From the NCBI RefSeq assembly GCF_000023865.1, contig NC_013159.1, forward strand, positions 1,638,001-1,702,000: DNA of 64,000 nt, written 5' to 3'. A program made the translations under genes and the position numbers. This document shows positions 2,623 to 49,413 of the stretch, in pieces. Every line of letters starts with the position of its first letter. Position 1 is the stretch's first letter. The notes beneath the pieces are model-generated. The model was given only the letters and a program-made list of their open reading frames with translations. It ran no database searches and was not told the origin of the DNA. This DNA is from Saccharomonospora viridis DSM 43017 (GTDB taxonomy: Bacteria > Actinomycetota > Actinomycetes > Mycobacteriales > Pseudonocardiaceae).

Positions 2623-4722
2623 TCAGCTCTTCGCCTTCGCCAGCGACCGACGGGCGGCCTCCACCACGGCTTCGGTGGTGAACCCGAACTTCTCGAACAA
2701 CGTGTTGTAGTCCGCCGAGGCGCCGAACTGCTCGATCGAGATGATCTCGCCCGCCTCGCCCGCGAACCGGTACCACGGCTGGGCCGTCCCGGCCTCGACG
2801 ATGACGCGGGCCTTGACGGTCGGGGGGAGAACCGCGTCGCGGTACTCCTGGTCCTGCCGGTCGAACCACTCCACGCACGGCATCGACACCACGCTGGCGG
2901 GCACTCCCTCGGCTTCGAGCACCTTGCGGGCCTCCACCGCGAGCTGCACCTCCGAGCCCGTGGCGATCAGCACGACCTCGGGGGAGCCGTTGGAGGCCTC
3001 GGCCAGCACGTAGCCGCCCTTGGCGACGCCTTCGGCGCTGGTGCCCTCCAGCACCGGCACGTTCTGTCGGGTCAGTGCCAGGCCCGTGGGGTTGTGGACG
3101 TCCTCCAGCGCCGCCTTCCACGCCGCGGCCGTTTCGTTGGCGTCGGCGGGGCGAACGACGTTCAGACCGGGGATCGCGCGCAGCGAGGCCAACTGTTCGA
3201 CCGGCTGGTGGGTGGGCCCGTCCTCACCGAGGCCGATCGAATCGTGCGTCCACACGTAGATCACGGGGGCCTTCATCAGCGCCGCGAGGCGGACGGAAGG
3301 CCGCATGTAGTCGCTGAAGATGAGGAACGTGGCGCCGTAGGGGCGGGTGCCTCCGTGGAGGGCGATGCCGTTGAGGATCGCGCCCATCGCGTGTTCACGC
3401 ACCCCGAAGTGCAGGTTCCTGCCGTAGGGGTGGGCGGTGAACATGTCGGTGGAGGCGCTTTCGGGGCCGAACGAGTCCGAGTTCTTGATGAGGGTGTTGT
3501 TGCTCTCGGCCAGGTCGGCGGAGCCACCCCACAGTTCGGGCAGCGCATCGCCGATGGCGTTGAGGACCTCCCCGGACGCCTTCCGGGTCGCAAGACCCTT
3601 CGGGTCGGGTTCCCAGCTCGGGAGCTTCTCGGCCCACCCCTCGGGAAGCGAGCGGGTCCGGAGCCGGTCGGCGAGCTCCTTCCGCTCCGGGTTGGCCTGC
3701 GCCCAGGCGTCGAAGGCCTGCTGCCACTGCTCGCGAGCGGCACGTGCACGCTCCTTCACCTTGCGGGTGTGGGCGAGCACCTCGTCGTCGATGTGGAAGC
3801 TGACCTTGGGGTCGAAGCCGAGGATCTCCTTGACGGCGGCCACCTCGTCGGCGCCGAGCGCAGCGCCGTGGGCCTTACCGGTGTTCATCTTGTTCGGCGC
3901 TGGATAGCCGATCACGGTGCGCAGCACGATGAACGACGGCCGGGTGGTCTCGGCCTTCGCGGCCTCGATGGCCTGCTCGAAGGCCGCGACGTCCTCGCCG
4001 CCCTCGACGACCTGGACGTGCCAGCCGTACGCCTCGTAACGCTTGGCGGTGTCCTCGGAGAAGGCGATGTTGGTGTCGTCCTCGATGGAGATCTTGTTGT
4101 CGTCGTAGATGACGATCAGATTGCCGAGTTCCTGCCGGCCCGCCAAAGACGACGCCTCGGCCGTCACGCCCTCCTGGATGTCACCGTCGGAGGCGATCAC
4201 GTAGATGTGGTGGTCGAACGGGCTTTCCCCCTGCGGGGTGTCCGGGTCGAGCAGCCCACGCTCCCGGCGGGCCGCCATGGCCATACCCACGGCGTTGGCC
4301 AACCCCTGACCCAGCGGTCCCGTCGTGGTCTCCACACCCGGGGTGTGGCGGTACTCCGGGTGGCCGGGTGTCTTCGACCCCCACTTACGAAGCTGCTTGA
4401 TGTCCTCCATCTCCAGGCCGTAGCCGGCGAGGAACAGCTGGAGGTACAGCGTGAGGCTGCTGTGTCCGGCCGAGAGGATGAACCGGTCCCGGGCCGGCCA
4501 CTCCGGATCCGCGGGGTCATGGCGCATGATGCGCTGGAACAAGGAGTACGCCACCGGCGCCAAGCTCATGGCTGTGCCGGGGTGTCCGCTGCCACAGTGT
4601 TCGACGGCGTCGGCCGCCAGCACGCGGATCGTGTCCACCGCGCGGGTGTCCAGATCCGTCCAGTCGGCCGGGTAGTTCCGACGCAACAGTGGGTTGTTCT
4701 CCGTAGCGGCAATCTCCGACAC
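2623..4722 (-). CDS. tkt: Transketolase
   Basis: Thiamine diphosphate- and Mg-dependent transfer of two-carbon ketol units in the pentose phosphate pathway. The 699-residue product has normal family length. It shows the N-terminal GSGHPGTAMSLAPVAY motif, the ThDP-binding run beginning ASDGDIQEG and ending in DDNK, and the pyrimidine-domain motif FGVREHAMGAI with its catalytic glutamate. First gene of the minus-strand tkt-tal-pgi cluster. A 372-bp gap separates it from the divergent ctaB. Confidence 0.96.
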   Translation of the reverse strand: MSEIAATENNPLLRRNYPADWTDLDTRAVDTIRVLAADAVEHCGSGHPGTAMSLAPVAYSLFQRIMRHDPADPEWPARDRFILSAGHSSLTLYLQLFLAGYGLEMEDIKQLRKWGSKTPGHPEYRHTPGVETTTGPLGQGLANAVGMAMAARRERGLLDPDTPQGESPFDHHIYVIASDGDIQEGVTAEASSLAGRQELGNLIVIYDDNKISIEDDTNIAFSEDTAKRYEAYGWHVQVVEGGEDVAAFEQAIEAAKAETTRPSFIVLRTVIGYPAPNKMNTGKAHGAALGADEVAAVKEILGFDPKVSFHIDDEVLAHTRKVKERARAAREQWQQAFDAWAQANPERKELADRLRTRSLPEGWAEKLPSWEPDPKGLATRKASGEVLNAIGDALPELWGGSADLAESNNTLIKNSDSFGPESASTDMFTAHPYGRNLHFGVREHAMGAILNGIALHGGTRPYGATFLIFSDYMRPSVRLAALMKAPVIYVWTHDSIGLGEDGPTHQPVEQLASLRAIPGLNVVRPADANETAAAWKAALEDVHNPTGLALTRQNVPVLEGTSAEGVAKGGYVLAEASNGSPEVVLIATGSEVQLAVEARKVLEAEGVPASVVSMPCVEWFDRQDQEYRDAVLPPTVKARVIVEAGTAQPWYRFAGEAGEIISIEQFGASADYNTLFEKFGFTTEAVVEAARRSLAKAKS

Positions 4723-5094
4723 TGAACTTGGCTCCCTGAGATCTCACACGTTTGCTGTTCACTGACCCGGTTACCCGGCGGTGGCCGTCACAGTCGATCT
4801 TAATCGATCCTGAACCCGATGTGCCGGTCGTCTCGTCAATGGCTGACAAGGGTCGGTGCCCACGAGAACCGACGACGGGGTATCGGCCGATCCGGTGATC
4901 AGCCTAGTCCACGCGGATGGGTGGATCGGTGGTCGCCGCGATAGCGTGTGACGGTGTCGATGGGCGCGCTAAACGGTGACGTAGGTCCCGTGAGTGGGTG
5001 CCGCTGGGCGCTTCCGCGTCCCGTCCTACTACGATCCGTCAAGGTACTGCGTCCATGCTGACGCTGAAGACGAATCCAAGGCACAGGGAGCGAG
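4723..5094. promoter_or_regulatory. Divergent tkt/ctaB intergenic region
   Basis: No gene was found in these 372 bases. The stretch must hold the minus-strand promoter of tkt and the plus-strand promoter of ctaB. A possible plus-strand -10 hexamer TACGAT lies at 5030-5035, and a possible minus-strand -10 TAAGAT near 4800. Neither has a convincing -35 box. AGGGAG at 5084-5089 is the likely ctaB ribosome binding site. Confidence 0.4.
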
Positions 5095-6075
5095 ATGTCG
5101 TTGGTGAACGCTGTGCATGGGCGCAGTGAGCACACCAGCGCCGTGCATCCCACTGGCGAGTCCCCAGCTGGTGGCCGGCGAGGTTTGCGTGAGGTCATCG
5201 GCGCGTACGCCGCGCTCGCCAAGCCGCGGGTGATCGAGCTGCTGTTGGTCACCACGATCCCCGCGATGTTCCTGGCCGGTCGGGAGATTCCGTCACCGTG
5301 GCTGGTTCTGGCCACCCTCGTGGGTGGAACGATGGCCGCGGGTAGCGCGAACGCGTTGAACTGCGTCATCGACGCCGACATCGACAAGGTCATGAACCGG
5401 ACCCGGCGGCGGCCGTTGGTGCGGGACTCGGTGCCGAGGCGCAACGCGCTCGTCTTCGGCATCGCGCTCGGTCTGATCTCCTTCGGGCTGCTCTATGTGA
5501 CGGTGAACCTGCTCGCCGCTGTGCTGGCGGTCGCCACGATCCTGTTCTACATCTTCGTCTACACGCTGTTGCTCAAGCGGCGTACGCCGCAGAACGTCGT
5601 GTGGGGCGGTGCGGCGGGCTGCATGCCGGTGGTCATCGGCTGGGCCGCCGTCACGGGCACGGTGGAATGGCCCGCCTTCGTCATGTTCGGCGTCATCTTC
5701 TTCTGGACCCCACCGCACACGTGGGCCCTGGCCATGCGGTACCGCGAGGACTACGAACGCGCCGGCGTGCCCATGCTGCCCGTCGTGGCGACACCGAAGC
5801 ACGTGGCCAAGCAGATCGTCGTCTACTCGTGGGTGATGGTGGCGTGGACCCTGCTGCTCGTCCCGGCGACGAGCTGGCTGTACGCGGCCTTCGCCTTGCT
5901 GGCGGGTGCATGGTTCCTCTTCTACGCGCACCGGCTCTACGCCTCCGTGGCGCGGGGTGAGAAGACCAAGCCGATGGCGCTGTTCCACCGGTCGAACACC
6001 TATCTGATGGTCGTCTTCGTCGCGCTCGCCGTGGACGCCGCGATCGGTCTGCCCGTGTTCGGCTTCCCTTTCTAG
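5095..6075 (+). CDS. ctaB: Protoheme IX farnesyltransferase (heme O synthase)
   Basis: Attaches a farnesyl group to protoheme IX to give heme O, the precursor of the heme A used by the aa3 cytochrome oxidase. The 326-residue polytopic membrane protein belongs to the UbiA family. The first Asp-rich motif [19 protein letters not shown] and the second [12 protein letters not shown] are intact, and the spacing of hydrophobic segments fits about nine membrane spans. ATG at 5095 follows AGGGAG by five bases. The partner enzyme CtaA is encoded near 15.4-16.4 kb. Its TAG stop lies inside a 10-bp tandem duplication (6071-6090). Confidence 0.95.
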
Positions 6076-6237
6076 GGTTATCTAGGGTTATCGGAGAGTC
6101 ACCCGGGCCGCCGATGGCGCGGTCCGGGAATCACCGCCTTTTTCCGTCCGTTACCTCTCGGCTGAATCCGTCCTTCGACCGCGAAAGTGGGGCCGTCTGT
6201 GTCCGTGTCCCCGCATCACCGGGAACCCGACAGCACA

Positions 6238-8679
6238 ATGCCGTTCGATCGCAAGACGACGTTCGACAGCAAAACCGCAGAACAGACCCGGCCGGGTTCG
6301 GCCGGTACGTCGGCGTCCGGCAAGTCCGCCGACATCGCCGCTGAGCAGGCGTATGTGTCGACGCTCTACGACCGGCTCGACGCCGAACGCGAACTCGTCG
6401 AGCGCCGACTCACCGAAGCTTTGCGCAGCCCTGGGGAAACACCGCAGGCCGCGGCGGAACGTGAGGCCGCCAGCGCGGCTCACAGTGAACGGCTGGCTCA
6501 GCTCAAAGCGGTGGAGCAGGGGCTGTGTTTCGGCCGGCTCGACTTCGTGGACGGCCATGACGGGGACTCCCCGATCTACATCGGGCGCCTGGGCCTGTTC
6601 GACGAGGACGACGACTACCGACCGTTGCTGGTGGACTGGCGTGCGCCCGTAGCCCGGCCGTTCTACCTCGCCACGGCCGCATCCCCACAGGGAGTGCGGC
6701 GCCGCAGGCACATCCGCACGTTGAGCCGGCGAGTGGTCGGATTGGACGACGAGGTGCTGGATCTCAGTGCGGACGAGCACAGCAACCACCTCGGTCTGGC
6801 GGGCGAGGCCGCGCTCCTGGCCGCGCTCGAACGTCGGCGCACCGGTGAGATGTCCGACATCGTCGCGACCATCCAGGCCGAGCAGGACCGCATCATCCGC
6901 GCCGAGCTGCCCGGCGTGCTCGTCGTGCAGGGAGGTCCCGGCACCGGTAAGACCGCCGTCGCTTTGCACCGGGCCGCCTACCTGCTCTACACGTATCGGC
7001 GGCAGCTGACCACACGTGGTGTGCTCGTCGTGGGACCCAACAGCACGTTCCTGCGCTACATCGGACAGGTGCTGCCGTCCCTGGGGGAGACCGGTGTGTT
7101 GCTCGCCACCATCGGTGAGCTGTTCCCCGGACTGTCCGCCACGGGCGTCGACACGCCGGAGGCGGCCGAGGTCAAAGGCCGCATCACGATGGCGGACGTC
7201 CTCGCCCAGGCCGTCCGGGATCGGCAGATCGTGCCCGAGGACACCTGGGAGGTGACCGTCGAGGACGGGGATGTGCTGGTCATCGACCGCCATATGTGCG
7301 AGCGCGCCAGGGCGAAGGCGCGAGCCACACTGCGCCCCCACAACCTCGCGAGGCGGGTGTTCGTGGACCAGCTGCTCGATGCGTTGGCCGAACAGGTGGC
7401 CCAGCGGCTGGAGTCGAACGTGCTCGATGACCTGCCCGAGATCCCGTTGACGGAGGACGAGGAGGACAGCGGGCCGATGCTCGACACCCGCGACCTCGCC
7501 ACGATCCGCCAGGAGTTGGCCGAGGACACGCACGTGCAGGCCGCCCTGCAGGAGCTGTGGCCCAAGCTCACTCCGCAGGAGCTGCTCAGCGACCTGCTCA
7601 CCTCGGAGGAGCGGCTGGCCTCGGCCGCGGACGGGTTGCTGGACGAGGCGGAGTGGAGGGCCCTGCTGCGTCGGCCCGGATCCCTCTGGACGCCTGCGGA
7701 CGTGCCTTTGCTGGACGAACTGGCCGAGCTCCTCGGTGAGGACGACACCGAGGCCCGTGCCCGCAGGGAGCGGCAGCGCCGGGAGGAGCGCGCCTACGCC
7801 GAGGGTGTGCTCCACGTGTTGGAACAGGACGACGAGATCATCGACGAGGAGGTCGTGCGAGTGCGCGACGTCCTCGACGCGGAACTGCTGGCCGAACGGC
7901 AGGAGGCCAGCAGCGGTCTCAGTGCCGCTCAGCGCGCGGCGTTGGACCGGTCGTGGACGTTCGGGCACGTCATCGTCGACGAGGCGCAGGAGCTGTCGGA
8001 GATGGACTGGCGGCTGCTGATGCGCCGGTGTCCGACTCGGTCGATGACCCTGGTGGGGGACGTGTCTCAGACGAGTTCACCCGCCGGTACGTCGTCGTGG
8101 GAGAACGTGCTGCGCCCGTATGTCGGCGATCGCTGGCGATTGCGGGAACTCACGGTGAATTACCGCACACCCGCCGAGATCATGGAGTTGGCCTCGGCCG
8201 TGCTCGCCGACATCGACCCCGAGCTACCGGCGCCCACGTCCGTGCGGGAGACGGGAGTCGCCCCGTGGCAGCGTTCCACGAGCCCGGACGACGTCGCCGC
8301 CGATGTCCGTCGATGGGTGGAGGAGGAGCTGGCGGCGCTGGACCGCGAGCGTGGTGGTGGCACCCTGGCCGTGCTGTGCCCGGACTCCCTGGAAGGAAGG
8401 TTGGCGGCCGAACTGGCCGAAACACGTGACGCTGCGGGATCCGACGACACCGATGACAATCCCAGAGTGTCGGTACTCACAGTGGACAGGGCCAAGGGGT
8501 TGGAGTTCGATGTCGTGATCGTGGTCGCACCTCACGAGATCGCGACCGCTTCGCCACGGGGGAAGAACGACCTGTACGTGGCGCTCACACGGGCCACCCA
8601 ACGGCTCGGCGTCGTCCACACCGCACCACCGTTGCCCGCTCTCTCAGGCGAGCAAAAGTCCGCGTCGACGTCCGGATAA
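6238..8679 (+). CDS. HelD-like UvrD/Rep-type ATPase
   Basis: Superfamily 1 helicase-like protein of the HelD group, whose studied members bind RNA polymerase and help release it from DNA or nucleic acids. The 813-residue product has a charged N-terminal coiled-coil arm, Walker A GGPGTGKTAVALH near residue 232, a Walker B-like VIVDEAQELSEMDW motif, and C-terminal helicase motifs LTVDRAKGLEFDVVIV and YVALTRATQRLGVVHT. A GTG at 6187 would extend the N-terminus by 17 residues; the ATG at 6238 was preferred, but spacing to a purine-rich site is poor for both. The RNA polymerase link is family knowledge, not visible here. Confidence 0.82.
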   Translation: MPFDRKTTFDSKTAEQTRPGSAGTSASGKSADIAAEQAYVSTLYDRLDAERELVERRLTEALRSPGETPQAAAEREAASAAHSERLAQLKAVEQGLCFGRLDFVDGHDGDSPIYIGRLGLFDEDDDYRPLLVDWRAPVARPFYLATAASPQGVRRRRHIRTLSRRVVGLDDEVLDLSADEHSNHLGLAGEAALLAALERRRTGEMSDIVATIQAEQDRIIRAELPGVLVVQGGPGTGKTAVALHRAAYLLYTYRRQLTTRGVLVVGPNSTFLRYIGQVLPSLGETGVLLATIGELFPGLSATGVDTPEAAEVKGRITMADVLAQAVRDRQIVPEDTWEVTVEDGDVLVIDRHMCERARAKARATLRPHNLARRVFVDQLLDALAEQVAQRLESNVLDDLPEIPLTEDEEDSGPMLDTRDLATIRQELAEDTHVQAALQELWPKLTPQELLSDLLTSEERLASAADGLLDEAEWRALLRRPGSLWTPADVPLLDELAELLGEDDTEARARRERQRREERAYAEGVLHVLEQDDEIIDEEVVRVRDVLDAELLAERQEASSGLSAAQRAALDRSWTFGHVIVDEAQELSEMDWRLLMRRCPTRSMTLVGDVSQTSSPAGTSSWENVLRPYVGDRWRLRELTVNYRTPAEIMELASAVLADIDPELPAPTSVRETGVAPWQRSTSPDDVAADVRRWVEEELAALDRERGGGTLAVLCPDSLEGRLAAELAETRDAAGSDDTDDNPRVSVLTVDRAKGLEFDVVIVVAPHEIATASPRGKNDLYVALTRATQRLGVVHTAPPLPALSGEQKSASTSG

Positions 8680-38711: not shown

Positions 38712-40340
38712 GTGATCACCGCTACCGGGCTCGAACTGCGCGCCGGTTCACGCATCCTGCTGTCCGACACGACGCTGCGTGTCCAACCCGGCGACCGTAT
38801 TGGACTCGTCGGACGTAACGGAGCGGGTAAGACAACCACGCTGCGTGTACTCGCGGGGGAGAGCGACCCGTATGCGGGCGAGGTGACCCGTACCGCGGAG
38901 ATCGGCTACCTACCCCAGGACCCTCGTGAGGGTGATCTGGCGGTCACCGCCAAGGACCGGGTGTTGTCGGCGCGCGGGCTGGATGTGCTGCTCCGCGACA
39001 TGGAGAAGGCGCAGACCGAGATGGCCGAGTTGGCGGACGACACCGCGCGTGACAAGGCCGTGCGCCGTTACGGCCGGTTGGAGGAGCGTTTCGCGGCTCT
39101 GGGCGGGTACGCGGCTGAGAGTGAGGCCGCTCGGATCTGCTCCAACCTGGGCTTGGAGGACCGCGTCCTGCCGCAGCCGTTGCGGACGCTGTCCGGCGGG
39201 CAACGTCGTCGCGTGGAGTTGGCGCGCATCCTGTTCGCCGCCTCGGAGGCGGGCTCGGGAGGGAAGTCGGGCACCATTCTGCTGCTCGACGAGCCCACCA
39301 ACCATCTCGACGCGGACTCCATCACGTGGTTGCGAGGCTTCCTCAAATCCCACACCGGCGGTCTGGTCGTCATCAGCCACGACGTCGACCTGCTCGACGA
39401 GGTGGTCAACAAGGTGTGGTTCCTCGATGCCACGCGCGGCGAGCTCGACAGCTACAACATGAACTGGAAGCGCTATCTCGACGCGCGCGCCACCGATGAG
39501 AAACGGCGCCGGCGGGAACGCGCCAACGCCGAGAAGAAGGCCGCCGCATTGCAACAGCAGGCCGCCAAACTGGGGGCGAAGGCCACCAAGGCCGTCGCCG
39601 CGAAGAACATGGTGCGCAGGGCTGAGCAGATGCTGGCGAACCTCGAGGAGGAGCGACGGGCCGACAAGGTCGCGAACATCAGGTTCCCTGCTCCCGCGCC
39701 GTGCGGTCGGGTCCCGCTGACGGCGGAGAACCTGTCCAAGTCGTACGGCTCGCTGGAGGTCTTCACCGGGGTGGATCTCGCCGTGGACCGTGGTTCCCGG
39801 GTCGTCGTGCTCGGGCTCAACGGTGCGGGTAAGACCACGCTGCTGCGGCTGTTGGCCGGATTGGAGACGCCGGACACGGGACGAGTGGTCCCCGGTCACG
39901 GTCTGCGGTTGGGTTATTACGCCCAGGAGCACGAGACGTTGGACCACGACGCGACCGTGTGGGAGAACATCCGGCATCTGGCCCCGGACGCCGGTGCCCA
40001 GGAGTTGCGCAACCTCCTCGGCTCGTTCCTGTTCAGCGGTGAACAGCTCGATCAGCCCGCGAAAACACTTTCGGGTGGGGAGAAGACCCGGCTTGCGTTG
40101 GCGGCGCTGGTGTCGAGTGCGGCGAATGTGTTGTTGTTGGACGAACCGACGAACAACCTCGATCCGGCGAGCCGGGAGCAGGTGTTGGATGCATTGCGCC
40201 GATACGAAGGCGCTGTGGTTCTTGTGACACATGATCCGGGTGCGGTTGACGCGCTCCAACCCGAACGGGTGATCTTGCTTCCGGACGGCACAGAAGATCT
40301 GTGGTCCGACGATTATCGAGAACTGGTGGAACTCGCCTGA
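38712..40340 (+). CDS. ABC-F family ATPase (ribosome-associated)
   Basis: Soluble protein of 542 residues with two ATPase domains joined by a charged linker (about residues 245-330, rich in Lys/Arg/Ala: EKRRRRERANAEKKAAALQQ) and no membrane segment. This is the layout of ABC-F proteins, which act on translating ribosomes. Walker A motifs are VGRNGAGKTTTLRV and LGLNGAGKTTLLRL; signatures are LSGGQRRRVELA and LSGGEKTRLALA; Walker B motifs are ILLLDEPTNHLD and VLLLDEPTNNLD. The start is GTG with GGAG eight bases before. It matches Rv1473 of M. tuberculosis by position and size. Antibiotic protection cannot be judged from this. Confidence 0.9.
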   Translation: MITATGLELRAGSRILLSDTTLRVQPGDRIGLVGRNGAGKTTTLRVLAGESDPYAGEVTRTAEIGYLPQDPREGDLAVTAKDRVLSARGLDVLLRDMEKAQTEMAELADDTARDKAVRRYGRLEERFAALGGYAAESEAARICSNLGLEDRVLPQPLRTLSGGQRRRVELARILFAASEAGSGGKSGTILLLDEPTNHLDADSITWLRGFLKSHTGGLVVISHDVDLLDEVVNKVWFLDATRGELDSYNMNWKRYLDARATDEKRRRRERANAEKKAAALQQQAAKLGAKATKAVAAKNMVRRAEQMLANLEEERRADKVANIRFPAPAPCGRVPLTAENLSKSYGSLEVFTGVDLAVDRGSRVVVLGLNGAGKTTLLRLLAGLETPDTGRVVPGHGLRLGYYAQEHETLDHDATVWENIRHLAPDAGAQELRNLLGSFLFSGEQLDQPAKTLSGGEKTRLALAALVSSAANVLLLDEPTNNLDPASREQVLDALRRYEGAVVLVTHDPGAVDALQPERVILLPDGTEDLWSDDYRELVELA

Positions 40341-44989: not shown

Positions 44990-45151
44990 ACACGACCGAC
45001 ACGAGGTGATAAGCGACAAGGCAACCACATGGCCGGAACAACCTGATCGGGGGATAGCGCGTCTACGCCACAGAGGCATGCGGTTAGGTATGCGCGCAGC
45101 AGTACGAGACAGGCGCGTACAGGACAGGCGCGCGGAGCGATCGGAGTGGCC

Positions 45152-46321
45152 ATGACTTACGGCAGGCACCAGGGTGGGCATCGGCCACCGCCTCCAGGCC
45201 GTCGGCCGCCACGCGGCCCCAGGCAGCATCAACAGGCACGGATGATGCCCGTACCGGGCAGTGAACGGGCACGGCAGGCACCGCGCCGACCGCAGTCCAC
45301 TCGGGTGGCGCCTCCACCCGCGCAGCCGCCCCCGCCCGCACCCCGACGGCCGACTTCCGGAGGGCGTCCGCGTCGCAGGCGGTGGTCGTTCGGCAAGGTG
45401 CTGTTGAGTCTGTTGCTGGTGTTCCTGCTGTTCGTCGGCGTCGTGTGGTTCTATCTGGACTCCTCCATCAACCGCATCGACGCCCTGCCCGACTACGAGG
45501 GCAGGCCGGCGGCCGGTGAGGGCACGAACTGGCTGCTTGTCGGTTCGGACTCCCGTGAGGGGCTCGACGAGGAGCGGATGGCGGAACTGTCGACCGGCGA
45601 TACGGGCGGCAAGCGTACCGACACGATCATGATCGCCCACATCCCGGACAACGACACGCCTCCGACGTTGCTCAGCCTGCCGCGTGACTCACGGGTCGAG
45701 ATTCCCGGACATGGGGTCAACAAGATCAACGCCGCGTTCTCGTTCGGTGGTGCTCCCCTGCTGGTGAGAACGGTGGAGCAGGCCACAGGGCTGCGCATCG
45801 ATCACTACGCCGAGATCGGTTTCGGTGGCTTCGCCGAGGTGGTGGATGCCATCGGCGGCGTCGAAATGGACATTCCGGAAGAAATGCGCGACACCAAGAC
45901 CGGGATCGTCATCCCCGCGGGCACGCAGATCCTGGACGGCGCGCAGGCACTCGGTTTCGTCCGCATGCGTTACAGCGAGGCCACACCTCGGTCGGACCTT
46001 GACCGGGTGGCCAACCAGCGGAAATTCATCGGTGCGTTGGCGAGTGAGATCGCGAGCCCGGCCACGTTGCTCAACCCGTTCGACGTCTTCCCGCTACTCG
46101 GTGCCGTGCCGGACGCGCTCACGCTCGACGAGGACGATCATCTGCACCACCTGGTGGCGTTGGCGTGGGCGATGCGGGGGATCGGCGGCGGGGGAGTGGT
46201 CACCACCACCGTGCCTGTCACCTCCGCCTCGGCCGAGAACTGGGATCCGGCGAAGTCGGAGGCGTTGTTCGAGGCGTTGCGCACCGACTCGCCGATCCCG
46301 GAGGAAGTCCTCATGGAGTGA
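45152..46321 (+). CDS. LytR-CpsA-Psr (LCP) family cell-wall ligase
   Basis: Anchored protein of 389 residues that likely transfers polymer (arabinogalactan or similar glycan) from a lipid carrier to peptidoglycan outside the membrane. It has a cytoplasmic Pro/Arg/Gln-rich tail of 78 residues, one membrane span (82-101), and an LCP domain: LLVGSDSREGLDEE, GKRTDTIMIAHI, LLSLPRDSRVEIPGHG, GFVRMRYSEATPRSDLDRV. These contain the conserved Arg/Asp residues that bind pyrophosphate. GGAG at 45143-45146 points to ATG 45152. A 15-bp tandem duplication (GACAGGCGCG at 45108 and 45123) lies in the leader. Confidence 0.9.
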   Translation: MTYGRHQGGHRPPPPGRRPPRGPRQHQQARMMPVPGSERARQAPRRPQSTRVAPPPAQPPPPAPRRPTSGGRPRRRRWSFGKVLLSLLLVFLLFVGVVWFYLDSSINRIDALPDYEGRPAAGEGTNWLLVGSDSREGLDEERMAELSTGDTGGKRTDTIMIAHIPDNDTPPTLLSLPRDSRVEIPGHGVNKINAAFSFGGAPLLVRTVEQATGLRIDHYAEIGFGGFAEVVDAIGGVEMDIPEEMRDTKTGIVIPAGTQILDGAQALGFVRMRYSEATPRSDLDRVANQRKFIGALASEIASPATLLNPFDVFPLLGAVPDALTLDEDDHLHHLVALAWAMRGIGGGGVVTTTVPVTSASAENWDPAKSEALFEALRTDSPIPEEVLME

Positions 46322-46760
46322 GCCTCGGTGTCGGCTGGGGAGGCCGTCCTGCGATCGGGCCTTCCACGACCGTGACACCGGGTCGGGGACCGGGCGGGGC
46401 TTGCCGGTCGCGTCGATCGCGACGAACGTCGACTGAGCGGTCGCGACCTCCGTCCGCGGCCCCGAGGTGTTCCATCGTTCGGAGGCCACCCTGACGGCGG
46501 TGGTCATCGAAGTCCGCCCGACCCGCTCCGATTCGGCGTGCACGCTGAGCGGGTCACCGGCTCGTACCGGGGGCGCGGAAGGTCATCCGGTCCACCGACG
46601 CGGTCACCGCGGGCCGCCGACGTGACGGGCCGCGGCGGCCGTGGCATCGTCGATCAGCTTCATCACCACACCGCCGTGGATGGTGCCGTACAGGTTGATG
46701 TCACCCTCGCTCATGATGTGAGCGAGGGTGACCTGGGAATCGTCCGCGGCGGGATGACAC
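46311..46760 (-). pseudogene. Frame-broken acyl-CoA thioesterase (hotdog, YciA/BFIT-like)
   Basis: Reading the minus strand gives a clear acyl-CoA hydrolase, but split across frames. VTLAHIMSEGDINLYGTIHG and GVVMKLIDDATAAAAARHVG come first, then a TGA in that frame; AVTASVDRMTFRAP continues in a second frame; VRAGDPLSVHAESERVGRTS and later AQSTFVAIDATGKPRPVP return to the first. Each switch falls in a C-run (GGCCCGCGG lacks one C, GCGCCCCCGG has one too many). Two further one-base shifts are needed to join a GTG start at 46760 and a stop at 46311. Either decay or homopolymer sequencing errors would explain this. It lies directly downstream of a cobalamin riboswitch and converges on the LCP gene. 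Confidence 0.8.
46700..46732 (-). repeat. Perfect 14-bp stem near the 5' end of the thioesterase
   Basis: GTCACCCTCGCTCA at 46700-46713 pairs with TGAGCGAGGGTGAC at 46719-46732 around a 5-base loop. It lies about 50 bases downstream of the riboswitch, inside the codons for VTLAHIMSEGD. No T-run follows. It could serve as the expression-platform hairpin, or be a chance result of coding constraints. Confidence 0.6.
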
Positions 46761-46781
46761 TGTGCGCGTGGGCGCGCACGG

Positions 46782-46991
46782 GCAGCGGGCAGGTCTTCGG
46801 ACTCGTAGGCGTGTTCGATCGCTTCCGGAAGGTCGAAGGACGGACGCTACCGGCCGTCGCTTCCCAGGCCGGAGGCCCAGTGCTCTATGACGGCGGTCGT
46901 TTCCCACTCACCGCTGCGAGGCAGTCCCGGACTCACACCGGGCTCCCTCTTGCGACGCCCCGAGGGGCGACCCCACTGCCGAACCCACTGC
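46782..46991 (-). ncRNA. Cobalamin (adenosylcobalamin) riboswitch
   Basis: Read on the minus strand, all main marks of an actinobacterial B12 riboswitch are present. Closing stem P1 pairs GCAGTGGG (46991-46984) with CCCGCTGC (46789-46782). The P3 region is AGCCCGGTGTGAGTCCGGGA, followed by CTCGCAGCGGTGAG, GACCGCCGTC, then CTGGGAAGCGACGGCCGGTA. The B12 box GAGTCCGAAGACCTGCC lies at 46804-46788. A 7-bp hairpin (46762-46779) follows two bases after P1. The only gene downstream on this strand is the broken thioesterase. The bcp gene ends about 100 bp upstream. Confidence 0.93.
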
Positions 46992-47092
46992 GCACCTCAC
47001 CTTACGTCGTGGGGCCGAGGTTCCGGCGGTCCACTCACACCGCCCACACCGAGTCGGAACACCGTTGCGGTGCCCTGCCACGGGCGCGGTGG

Positions 47093-47551
47093 TCAGGCTC
47101 CCTTCCGGGCACGCAGCACGTCCAGTGCCTTGTCGGCGTGGACGGACATGCGGAACTCGCTGCGGATGACGGCGAGGATCGTGCGATCGGTGTCGATCAC
47201 GAACGTATGCCGTTTGGTGCGCAACGGGCCGAAGCCACGGCGCACCCCGAACTGTGCCGCCACGGTGCCGTCGACGTCCGACAGCAGTGGGAAGCCGATC
47301 CCGTGGGCCTCGGAGAAGTGGCGCTGTCTGTCCACAGGGTCCGGGCTGACGCCCACCGGCTGCGCGCCGAGTTCCGCGAACTCCGAGGCCAGATCCCGGA
47401 AGTGGCATGTCTCTGCGGTGCAGCCGGGCGTCATGGCCGCGGGATAGAAGAACAACACGACAGGCCCGGACCGCAGGAGTTCGGATAGCCGTCGCGGCTC
47501 GCCGTCGTCGTCGGGGAGGGTGAAATCCGGTGCGCGGTCCTTCTGCTTCAT
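47093..47551 (-). CDS. bcp: Thiol peroxidase of the Bcp/PrxQ type
   Basis: Peroxiredoxin of 152 residues that reduces hydrogen peroxide and organic hydroperoxides. The peroxidatic Cys and a second Cys five residues later are in the motif MTPGCTAETCHFRDL, as in the atypical two-Cys PrxQ group; APDFTLPDDDGEP and GVSPDPVDRQRHF are further markers. The start overlaps the stop of the GGDEF/EAL-like gene upstream (ATGA), an unusual coupling. Confidence 0.93.
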   Translation of the reverse strand: MKQKDRAPDFTLPDDDGEPRRLSELLRSGPVVLFFYPAAMTPGCTAETCHFRDLASEFAELGAQPVGVSPDPVDRQRHFSEAHGIGFPLLSDVDGTVAAQFGVRRGFGPLRTKRHTFVIDTDRTILAVIRSEFRMSVHADKALDVLRARKGA

Positions 47552-49413
47552 GATCGTCCTTGTTCCTTCGCTCCCGCGAGCATCGAGCGGACCTCGGCTG
47601 CGCCGACTTCCTCGCCGAACAGTTTGCCGCGCCCCGCGATGATGCCGAGTTCGGCGAGCCGGCGTGCGTGTTCGGTGCTGTGCACCCCGTCGGCACCGAC
47701 GCGGGTGATGCCGAGTTCGCGGGCCCGACTCAACAACATGGAAAGGTGCCGGTGGGCGCTGTGACCACTGTCGTCGTCCTCGGCGAGTGCGTCGATCAGC
47801 GAACCCGAGACGATGAGGAATCCGACGGGCAGTCGATGCTGGTGGATCAGCTCGAGGTCGGCTGCGCCGGACACCGCCAGGGTGATCTTGACGTTGAGCT
47901 CGGCGAGCACCGACAACGTCTCCAGCACCTCGCCCCGCGGGTCGGTGAGCGCGATGCTGTCGGTGCAGATCCGGAGTTTGTTCGGCGGTAGCCCGGTGCG
48001 TTCCAGCTCGGTACGGACGATGCACACCAGATTCGGGTCGATGGCGAAGCGGGTGGGCAACCGCACGCACAGGTCGGGTGCGTTGGTGAACTCCTGGTGC
48101 CATACGGCGGCATCGGCCATGGACTGGGTGAGCACCAGCTGCCCCAGTGCCGGGGTCATGCCCGTGACGTCGGCCAGCGCGGAGAAGTCGGCGGGACGCA
48201 AAAGACCGTAGTCGGGATGGTTCCAGCGCAACACGGCGTTGACCACCGCGATCTGGTTGCTGCCGTCGAGCTTGACGGTCGGTTCGTAGTCGACCTCGAA
48301 CTGGCCGTTCTCCAGACCACCGCCGATCGCGGCACCGATGCTGTAACGTCGCCGGTCCCGGTCGTGCAGCTCCCGTTCGAAGAACATCCATTGGGCCTTG
48401 CCGTTCTCCTTGGCCCGGTGCAGCGTGATCTCGGCCGCGCGATGCAGCTCCTCACGGGTGTGGCCGGCGGCCTCGGTGACCACGATGCCGACACTGACGT
48501 TGACACCGATGCCTTTGCCCTCCACGTAGACCGGTTCGGCCAGTTCACGCATCGTGTCCTCGACGAGGTCGACCACGTTGGTGTTGTCGAACTCGCCTCG
48601 GAGCAGGACCGCGAAGCCGTCGCCGGAGAGCCGCGCCACCACCGCGTCATGGGGCATGAACTGGGCCTCCAGCTTGCGGGCGACCTGTCGCAACACCTCG
48701 TCGCCCGCGCCGGGGCCGAGTCCGTCGTTGATGACGCGGAAGCCGTCGATGTCGAGGTAGATCAGGGCGATGCGTTCCCCGGTGGTCCCGGCGAGCATCA
48801 TGTCGAGTTTGCTCTCGAAGTGATACGCGTTCGGCAAGCCCGTGAGTGGATCCTGCACGTTCTGTCTGCGCAGGGTCTCACCGAGCAGGTCGAGCTCGTT
48901 GATGTCTTCGAGCATCAGCACGGGGTGGGGCATGCCGTCGGGCCCGCCTTCGACGGTGGCGACGGTCACGCGGGCGCGGAGTGTGCCGTCCTTCGCGTGG
49001 ATGACCGTGAGTCGTTCCTGACGCGGTCGTCGCCCCGGCAGCGTGATCTCGGCCAGGGCTGCCGCGAGTGCCTTCGCGTCGCTCGGCGTGGCGGCAAGTG
49101 AGGTGAGGGGTTGTCCGATGAGGTCGGAGCGGGTGTACTCGAGCAACTGGACGAACGCGGGGTTGACGTCGCGGATGGTGCCGTCGGCGTCCCCGAGCAC
49201 CACGCCGATCGGCGCGGCGGCGTAGAGGTCGATGAAACGACGAGCGGCGGCGTCCCGCTCCGCCTGCGCCTCGGCCTGTGCCTCCTGCGCGACCGCGAGC
49301 AGTACGGACTCCAGGGTCTCCGCGGGAAGTTTGGCTCCCTCGGCCTCGGCCAGACGCGCCGCCCAGCGACGCGCGATGCCAGCTGGCCCTGGTGTGTCAC
49401 CAGGCTCCTGCAC
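47548..49413 (-). CDS. PAS-GGDEF-EAL protein with degenerate catalytic motifs
   Basis: Cytoplasmic protein of 621 residues: a short helical N-terminus, a PAS domain (about 60-170, AAPIGVVLGDADGTIRDVNP), a GGDEF domain and an EAL domain. The GGDEF signature is SGDGF at residues 263-267, so both Gly and Glu of the cyclase site are altered. The EAL position reads NAV in VVNAVLRWNHP (392-394), losing the metal-binding Glu. It is therefore unlikely to make or break cyclic di-GMP and may act as a sensor or effector. GTG start with GAGG upstream. Overlaps bcp by four bases. Confidence 0.85.
   Translation of the reverse strand: MQEPGDTPGPAGIARRWAARLAEAEGAKLPAETLESVLLAVAQEAQAEAQAERDAAARRFIDLYAAAPIGVVLGDADGTIRDVNPAFVQLLEYTRSDLIGQPLTSLAATPSDAKALAAALAEITLPGRRPRQERLTVIHAKDGTLRARVTVATVEGGPDGMPHPVLMLEDINELDLLGETLRRQNVQDPLTGLPNAYHFESKLDMMLAGTTGERIALIYLDIDGFRVINDGLGPGAGDEVLRQVARKLEAQFMPHDAVVARLSGDGFAVLLRGEFDNTNVVDLVEDTMRELAEPVYVEGKGIGVNVSVGIVVTEAAGHTREELHRAAEITLHRAKENGKAQWMFFERELHDRDRRRYSIGAAIGGGLENGQFEVDYEPTVKLDGSNQIAVVNAVLRWNHPDYGLLRPADFSALADVTGMTPALGQLVLTQSMADAAVWHQEFTNAPDLCVRLPTRFAIDPNLVCIVRTELERTGLPPNKLRICTDSIALTDPRGEVLETLSVLAELNVKITLAVSGAADLELIHQHRLPVGFLIVSGSLIDALAEDDDSGHSAHRHLSMLLSRARELGITRVGADGVHSTEHARRLAELGIIAGRGKLFGEEVGAAEVRSMLAGAKEQGRS

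Follow-up and report, generated by a model that had tools for sequence, protein, structure and literature searches.

The DNA considered here is a window of 64,000 nucleotides from Saccharomonospora viridis DSM 43017 (the whole stretch analysed), in which a cobalamin riboswitch aptamer stands, on the minus strand, in front of the remains of a thioesterase gene. The features that enter the argument are as follows, in window coordinates:

38712-40340, strand not given: ABC-F-like ATPase frame, recognized by eye
45146..46321, plus strand: gene of the LytR_cpsA_psr family (PF03816), convergent, ending just past the thioesterase remnant
46367..46747, minus strand (G000:C1:1684367-1684747): what is left of a gene for a hotdog (4HBT) acyl-CoA thioesterase; its frame is broken, with two in-frame TGA codons and three separate frame readings
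46748..46770, minus strand: junction where relatives have a switching hairpin, a ribosome-binding site and the thioesterase start codon, a segment that the window lacks (from comparison with the leaders of G090, G111 and streptomycete loci)
46771..46991, minus strand: cobalamin riboswitch aptamer (RF00174; 75.3 bits, full model), its own expression platform gone
47093..47551, minus strand: AhpC/TSA-type peroxiredoxin gene (PF00578), the upstream neighbour, outside the switch
47548-49413, strand not given: gene for a PAS-GGDEF-EAL protein, as read in the window

Only one Rfam match in the 64 kb window reaches the gathering score, namely that of the aptamer to the Cobalamin family (RF00174) at 46771-46991, which scores 75.3 bits where 31.5 is the gathering score, spans the complete model (1-189) and has an E value of 2.3e-17 in a 15 kb search. 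The initial annotation, which had called an adenosylcobalamin riboswitch on the minus strand at 46782-46991, is thereby upheld, its interval being correct to within 11 bases, as is its remark that a gene pair it called nrdAB has no such element of its own (no riboswitch was found there at the gathering score). Its description of the B12 box as ‘exact-looking’ was too generous: the window reads AGCACTG against an Rfam consensus of gCCACUG, and in the relatives compared the GCACTG core recurs, following an A, C or G. By the curated gathering score the aptamer is a member of RF00174, whereas the hairpin P13 that should precede the start codon as expression platform is missing from the window; membership does not by itself establish a working switch, and cobalamin binding and gene control are here putative. 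Cobalamin riboswitches are common, being present in all 120 genomes of a family sample, and the S. viridis genome (G000) has four RF00174 matches above the cut-off, the window aptamer among them; a fifth match (25.7 bits) falls below the cut-off and was left out of the analysis. The L5 loop has a T in the window aptamer (46771-46991) and in that of a second Saccharomonospora genome, G062 (L037, 8695-8922), both hairpin-less, and a C in the other aptamers that show this stretch, a difference from which no conclusion is drawn because two genomes are too few.

The thioesterase remnant that had been reported downstream is indeed present at 46367-46747, where it is 73% identical to an intact relative across residues 14-141 of 144, and its DNA is 87% identical, over 372 bases, to the intact gene of another member of the genus (G090). 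Of 12 Saccharomonospora genomes, four have an intact thioesterase (G090, G111, G124 and G126, in each case behind the riboswitch, that of G124 being L045/L126), two have a broken one (G000 and G062) and six show no close match, although completeness is only 82-83% in three of these six. The peroxiredoxin gene, the riboswitch and the thioesterase follow one another in G090 and G062 with nothing between them, and about 3 kb separates peroxiredoxin from riboswitch in G111 and likewise in G124 and G126; comparison with close relatives, which had been proposed as a check, thus finds the thioesterase to be the gene that follows the riboswitch. A PAS-GGDEF-EAL gene also lies upstream of the peroxiredoxin gene in G090, G062 and G111. 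The G062 thioesterase has lost its N-terminal part, and the two lesions are not nested (the window retains coding sequence missing in G062, and G062 retains leader missing in the window), so that they are taken as separate losses.

Since hairpin, ribosome-binding site and start are missing from the window and the frame behind them is broken, the aptamer is read as an orphan relic. The expectation that such an orphan would decay faster was not borne out, its divergence from the G090 aptamer being no faster than that of other members of the genus, those with an intact target included (identity to G090 is 83.9% for the window, 83.7% for G062, 86.5% for G111 and G124, and 84.3% for G126); the conservation of aptamer and remnant fits a recent loss and carries no sign of selection either way. 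An aptamer that still scores 75.3 bits and diverges no faster than in relatives might instead be no relic and now control a non-coding or antisense transcript running into the convergent LytR_cpsA_psr gene, near the 3' end of which the remnant stops, and non-coding transcripts under B12 control are known in other systems. That explanation is nonetheless very unlikely: no consensus match was found in 46200-47200 for sigma-70-type promoters or T-tailed terminators, the known expression platform is missing, and recent loss explains the conservation equally well in view of a remnant so similar to the G090 gene.

The pairing of riboswitch and thioesterase reaches well beyond the genus. A scan of named genomes yielded 79 loci (43 actinobacterial, 36 non-actinobacterial), and in 34 of the 43 actinobacterial loci (16 of 17, 13 of 17 and 5 of 9 by scanned set) the matched stretch is immediately preceded, on its own strand, by a cobalamin riboswitch that ends no more than about 300 bases from it. 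Five loci (L071, L073, L076, L077 and L079) have the order riboswitch, metE (the gene for cobalamin-independent methionine synthase), thioesterase. The riboswitch is absent in four: L056, where a stretch of 691 bases that includes the thioesterase duplicates L055 at 99.7% identity but without most of the aptamer; L081, in which a truncated metE precedes the thioesterase; L083, a divergent relative; and L113, a fragment. No riboswitch was found before the thioesterase in any of the nine non-actinobacterial loci scanned (L086-L094, of the 36). Additional switches were seen at two loci, L067 (3664-7209) having a tandem pair of cobalamin riboswitches that precede the thioesterase and, directly behind it, metE, respectively, and L085 (432-1722) having a second one that lies some 3 kb away from the unit, ahead of a gene for a periplasmic binding protein (PF01497).

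These loci bear upon the proposal that the riboswitch first served another gene, since deleted (a loss already considered in the initial annotation), and that the thioesterase is an accidental neighbour. The five loci with metE in between make it possible that metE was the ancestral first gene in some lineages, and the metE of G000 lies elsewhere, behind a different riboswitch. However, relatives have the thioesterase next (or, in a minority, metE and then the thioesterase), it stands directly behind the riboswitch in most of the actinobacterial loci, nothing intervenes at the same locus in G090 and G062, and a search of relatives for some other lost downstream gene found none, all of which leaves a deleted target very unlikely. 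Neighbouring genes vary between most loci, and the riboswitch with its thioesterase recurs in differing surroundings; the gene finder behind the neighbour clustering, a crude one based on codon bias, overlooked even the thioesterase at 13 of 43 loci (cluster 0 = 30), and silence from that clustering therefore means little.

The unit is patchy in its occurrence: in an evenly drawn sample of 394 Streptomycetaceae genomes, which partly overlaps the 43-locus set, 22 have the thioesterase at E 1e-50 or better. A riboswitch lies upstream in 20 of these 22 (L165, 16 of the 20 loci of one set, and L217, L219 and L220, the last three on longer stretches), with metE between riboswitch and thioesterase in L217 and L219 (the metE of L219 being in two reading frames); it is absent in two (L208/L216, and L211/L218, where the thioesterase is behind a truncated metE). 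Distant homologs are widespread, with 100 of 394 class genomes matching at E 1e-25 or better, and below 1e-50 G369 alone appears in the class sample besides the genome of the window; other class homologs are 42-60% identical among the matches listed, the window's genome and one G369 copy excepted. Ordinary paralogs had a riboswitch in none of 19 cases, with about 1.5 kb scanned on each side, and the sole locus of the same 20-locus scan with the special thioesterase (L165) has one.

In a protein tree built on few columns, for which the program issued a warning, the Saccharomonospora copies fall within a Streptomycetaceae clade (support 100/97), and a homolog from another genus of the window's own family, G047, falls outside it (support 100/99, again on few columns), a placement that fits a transfer of the riboswitch-thioesterase unit between families. 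G047 itself (L040, 7581-8499, minus strand) has a riboswitch of 65.7 bits before its divergent, 62% identical thioesterase, so the association may predate the recent spread. The hairpin core shared by the other leaders was not found at that locus, and no riboswitch was found at the related G001 locus (L041).

In relatives the stretch that joins the aptamer to the start codon contains a shared short hairpin, the loop of which holds the ribosome-binding site. Its core motif is present in 33 of the 34 adjacent loci (the exception being L082) and before metE in L067, L073, L077 and L079; L071 has none and L076 a variant. The hairpin was examined in an alignment of 32 rows (21 distinct) and 26 columns, the rows having been picked by the core motif, from which were omitted identical copies over those columns (L052, L056, L058, L061, L063, L064, L066, L112, L126, L127, L036 and L038), L076 (different loop), L071 and L082 (no pattern match), and the Saccharomonospora metE leaders, in which the loop is one base shorter (L144, L145, L148-L150, L152, L157-L159, L163 and L164). 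Pairing is possible in 92.1% of cells, against at most 57.1% in slid versions; at three pairs both partners change, and the outer pairs covary. The observed covariation score and percentage of paired cells were equalled by none of 500 shuffles, and the count of cells changed on both sides by two, the other two of the five measures being not unusual (88 and 206 of 500). Because rows were picked by the core motif, the inner three pairs were hardly free to vary, and the information in the test sits in the outer three, which in the Saccharomonospora rows are partly broken.

When the 3' part of the G090 leader was folded alone, the end of the aptamer paired with the 5' arm of the hairpin, a predicted fold that suggests two competing states of the leader. 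Hairpin P13 and an L5-L13 contact are described in PMC9600662; candidate kissing pairs between the L5 loop and the hairpin loop, judged by eye, were unconvincing beyond three bases. In the proposed mechanism, binding of cobalamin would favour the hairpin that directly precedes the start codon and encloses the ribosome-binding site in its loop, and the thioesterase of the relatives, like metE, would be produced under B12 shortage. The shared hairpin with its enclosed ribosome-binding site and covarying outer pairs indicates that B12 probably shuts translation, the level at which control is presumed to act, and the direction (repression by B12) is inferred by analogy from the riboswitch class.

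The cobalamin riboswitch is genuine and very likely has the thioesterase as its native target; in relatives it most likely serves as an off-switch, and what survives in the genome of the window is best read as an orphan relic. The suggestion in the initial annotation that B12 controls thioester metabolism survives as the likely state in relatives, where the pairing recurs in differing neighbourhoods, but such control cannot work in S. viridis itself, which lacks the segment that bears hairpin, ribosome-binding site and start and has no unbroken thioesterase frame.

The intact G090 protein belongs to the 4HBT profile family (PF03061, 78 bits against a cut-off of 20.6, 7e-22), its nearest solved relatives being cytosolic acyl-CoA thioester hydrolases (E 9e-34) and bacterial acyl-CoA hydrolases, and it is accordingly a 4HBT thioesterase for which acyl-CoA hydrolysis is predicted. 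It shares this fold family with such enzymes as YciA and the mammalian cytosolic acyl-CoA hydrolase (ACOT7), but it scores 65.9 bits against a cut-off of 162 with the YciA model (NCBIfam NF007970) and is for that reason not filed as YciA, from which it also differs in being encoded, as part of the unit, behind a B12 riboswitch. Two neighbour families recur beside the unit in 7 of 43 loci (L051 at 4422-8377, L054, L055, L062, L064, L084 and L113); Pfam searches on some of their members gave a ScfR-type regulator (L051, L054 and L084) and isocitrate lyase (L051, L055, L062 and L084), and malate synthase was seen beside the unit in L051. The ethylmalonyl-CoA pathway includes a B12-dependent mutase. 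The Paracoccus regulator RamB, of the ScfR family, binds CoA esters of that pathway and controls the glyoxylate cycle, according to PMC10370305. These neighbours, with RamB as a precedent, point to the clearing of stalled CoA esters as the likeliest single role, and we tentatively suggest that the thioesterase might release CoA bound in esters which accumulate once B12-dependent acyl-CoA mutases are without cofactor; literature searches on ethylmalonyl-CoA, cobalamin, thioesterase and YciA found no paper.

S. viridis has also lost metE, which survives as broken fragments behind another cobalamin riboswitch (L002; L156 4184-4972, minus strand, in the region G000:C1 3820680-3821256). The N-terminal domain (PF08267) is represented by two fragments in G000 and is near-whole in the other 11 genomes of the genus; the catalytic domain (PF01717) is matched in G000 by distant paralogs alone (64.7 and 51.6 bits) and with at least 484 bits in 10 of the 12 genomes, the twelfth, G121, being 82% complete. 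By tblastn, the broken pieces of the G000 gene correspond to roughly the first 210 of 761 residues. The methylmalonyl-CoA-mutase family and the MetH activation domain are matched in all 12 genomes, with one stop in each match in one of these two match sets (12 of 12 genomes), which probably reflects a run past the end of the gene.

GC-rich sequence is prone to errors and one wrong base can break a frame, but it is extremely unlikely that the living strain has an intact thioesterase and that the break is a sequencing or assembly error, since the genome is a single contig of 4,308,349 bases rated 100% complete, more than one lesion is involved (ribosome-binding site and start segment gone, frame broken), metE is wrecked too, and the thioesterase of G062 is damaged in another way, by a lesion that does not nest with this one. 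A steady supply of B12 may have made such backup genes dispensable in S. viridis, a species reported as a main cobalamin supplier in compost (PMC10480208). Loss of thioesterase and of metE is not coupled across the genus, because G062 has a broken thioesterase and an intact metE; the N-terminal domain of metE is matched in each of the six genomes that have no close thioesterase, and from a single genome no link between the two losses can be established.

Among the closest known systems is the RF00174 riboswitch before metE, which is of the same aptamer family, has the hairpin core in common in L067, L073, L077 and L079, and in five loci serves metE and the thioesterase together. The difference is that the target here is a thioesterase and not an isozyme of a B12-dependent enzyme, and that in the window both platform and target are broken. 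The gene classes given for B12 riboswitches in PMC3766115 are B12 synthesis, transport of B12 or its precursors, cobalt transport, and isozymes of B12-dependent enzymes; the switch family is the same, but a thioesterase fits none of these four. No paper describing the pairing was found in the open-licence literature searched, and an earlier mention may exist elsewhere.

These comparisons suggest that an acyl-CoA thioesterase would join the genes switched on under B12 shortage. It is quite possible, though somewhat less likely than not, that some actinobacteria meet such shortage both by replacing an enzyme (metE) and by clearing stalled substrates, a riboswitch-controlled thioesterase releasing CoA from the esters held up at methylmalonyl-, ethylmalonyl- or isobutyryl-CoA mutase, that the unit moves between lineages, and that S. 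viridis has lost both parts. If this is true, the response to B12 shortage would have a CoA-ester side, and an otherwise anonymous thioesterase would gain a physiological context; the window adds a natural case of loss, in which thioesterase and metE, each behind a riboswitch, are broken in an organism reported to supply B12 (PMC10480208).
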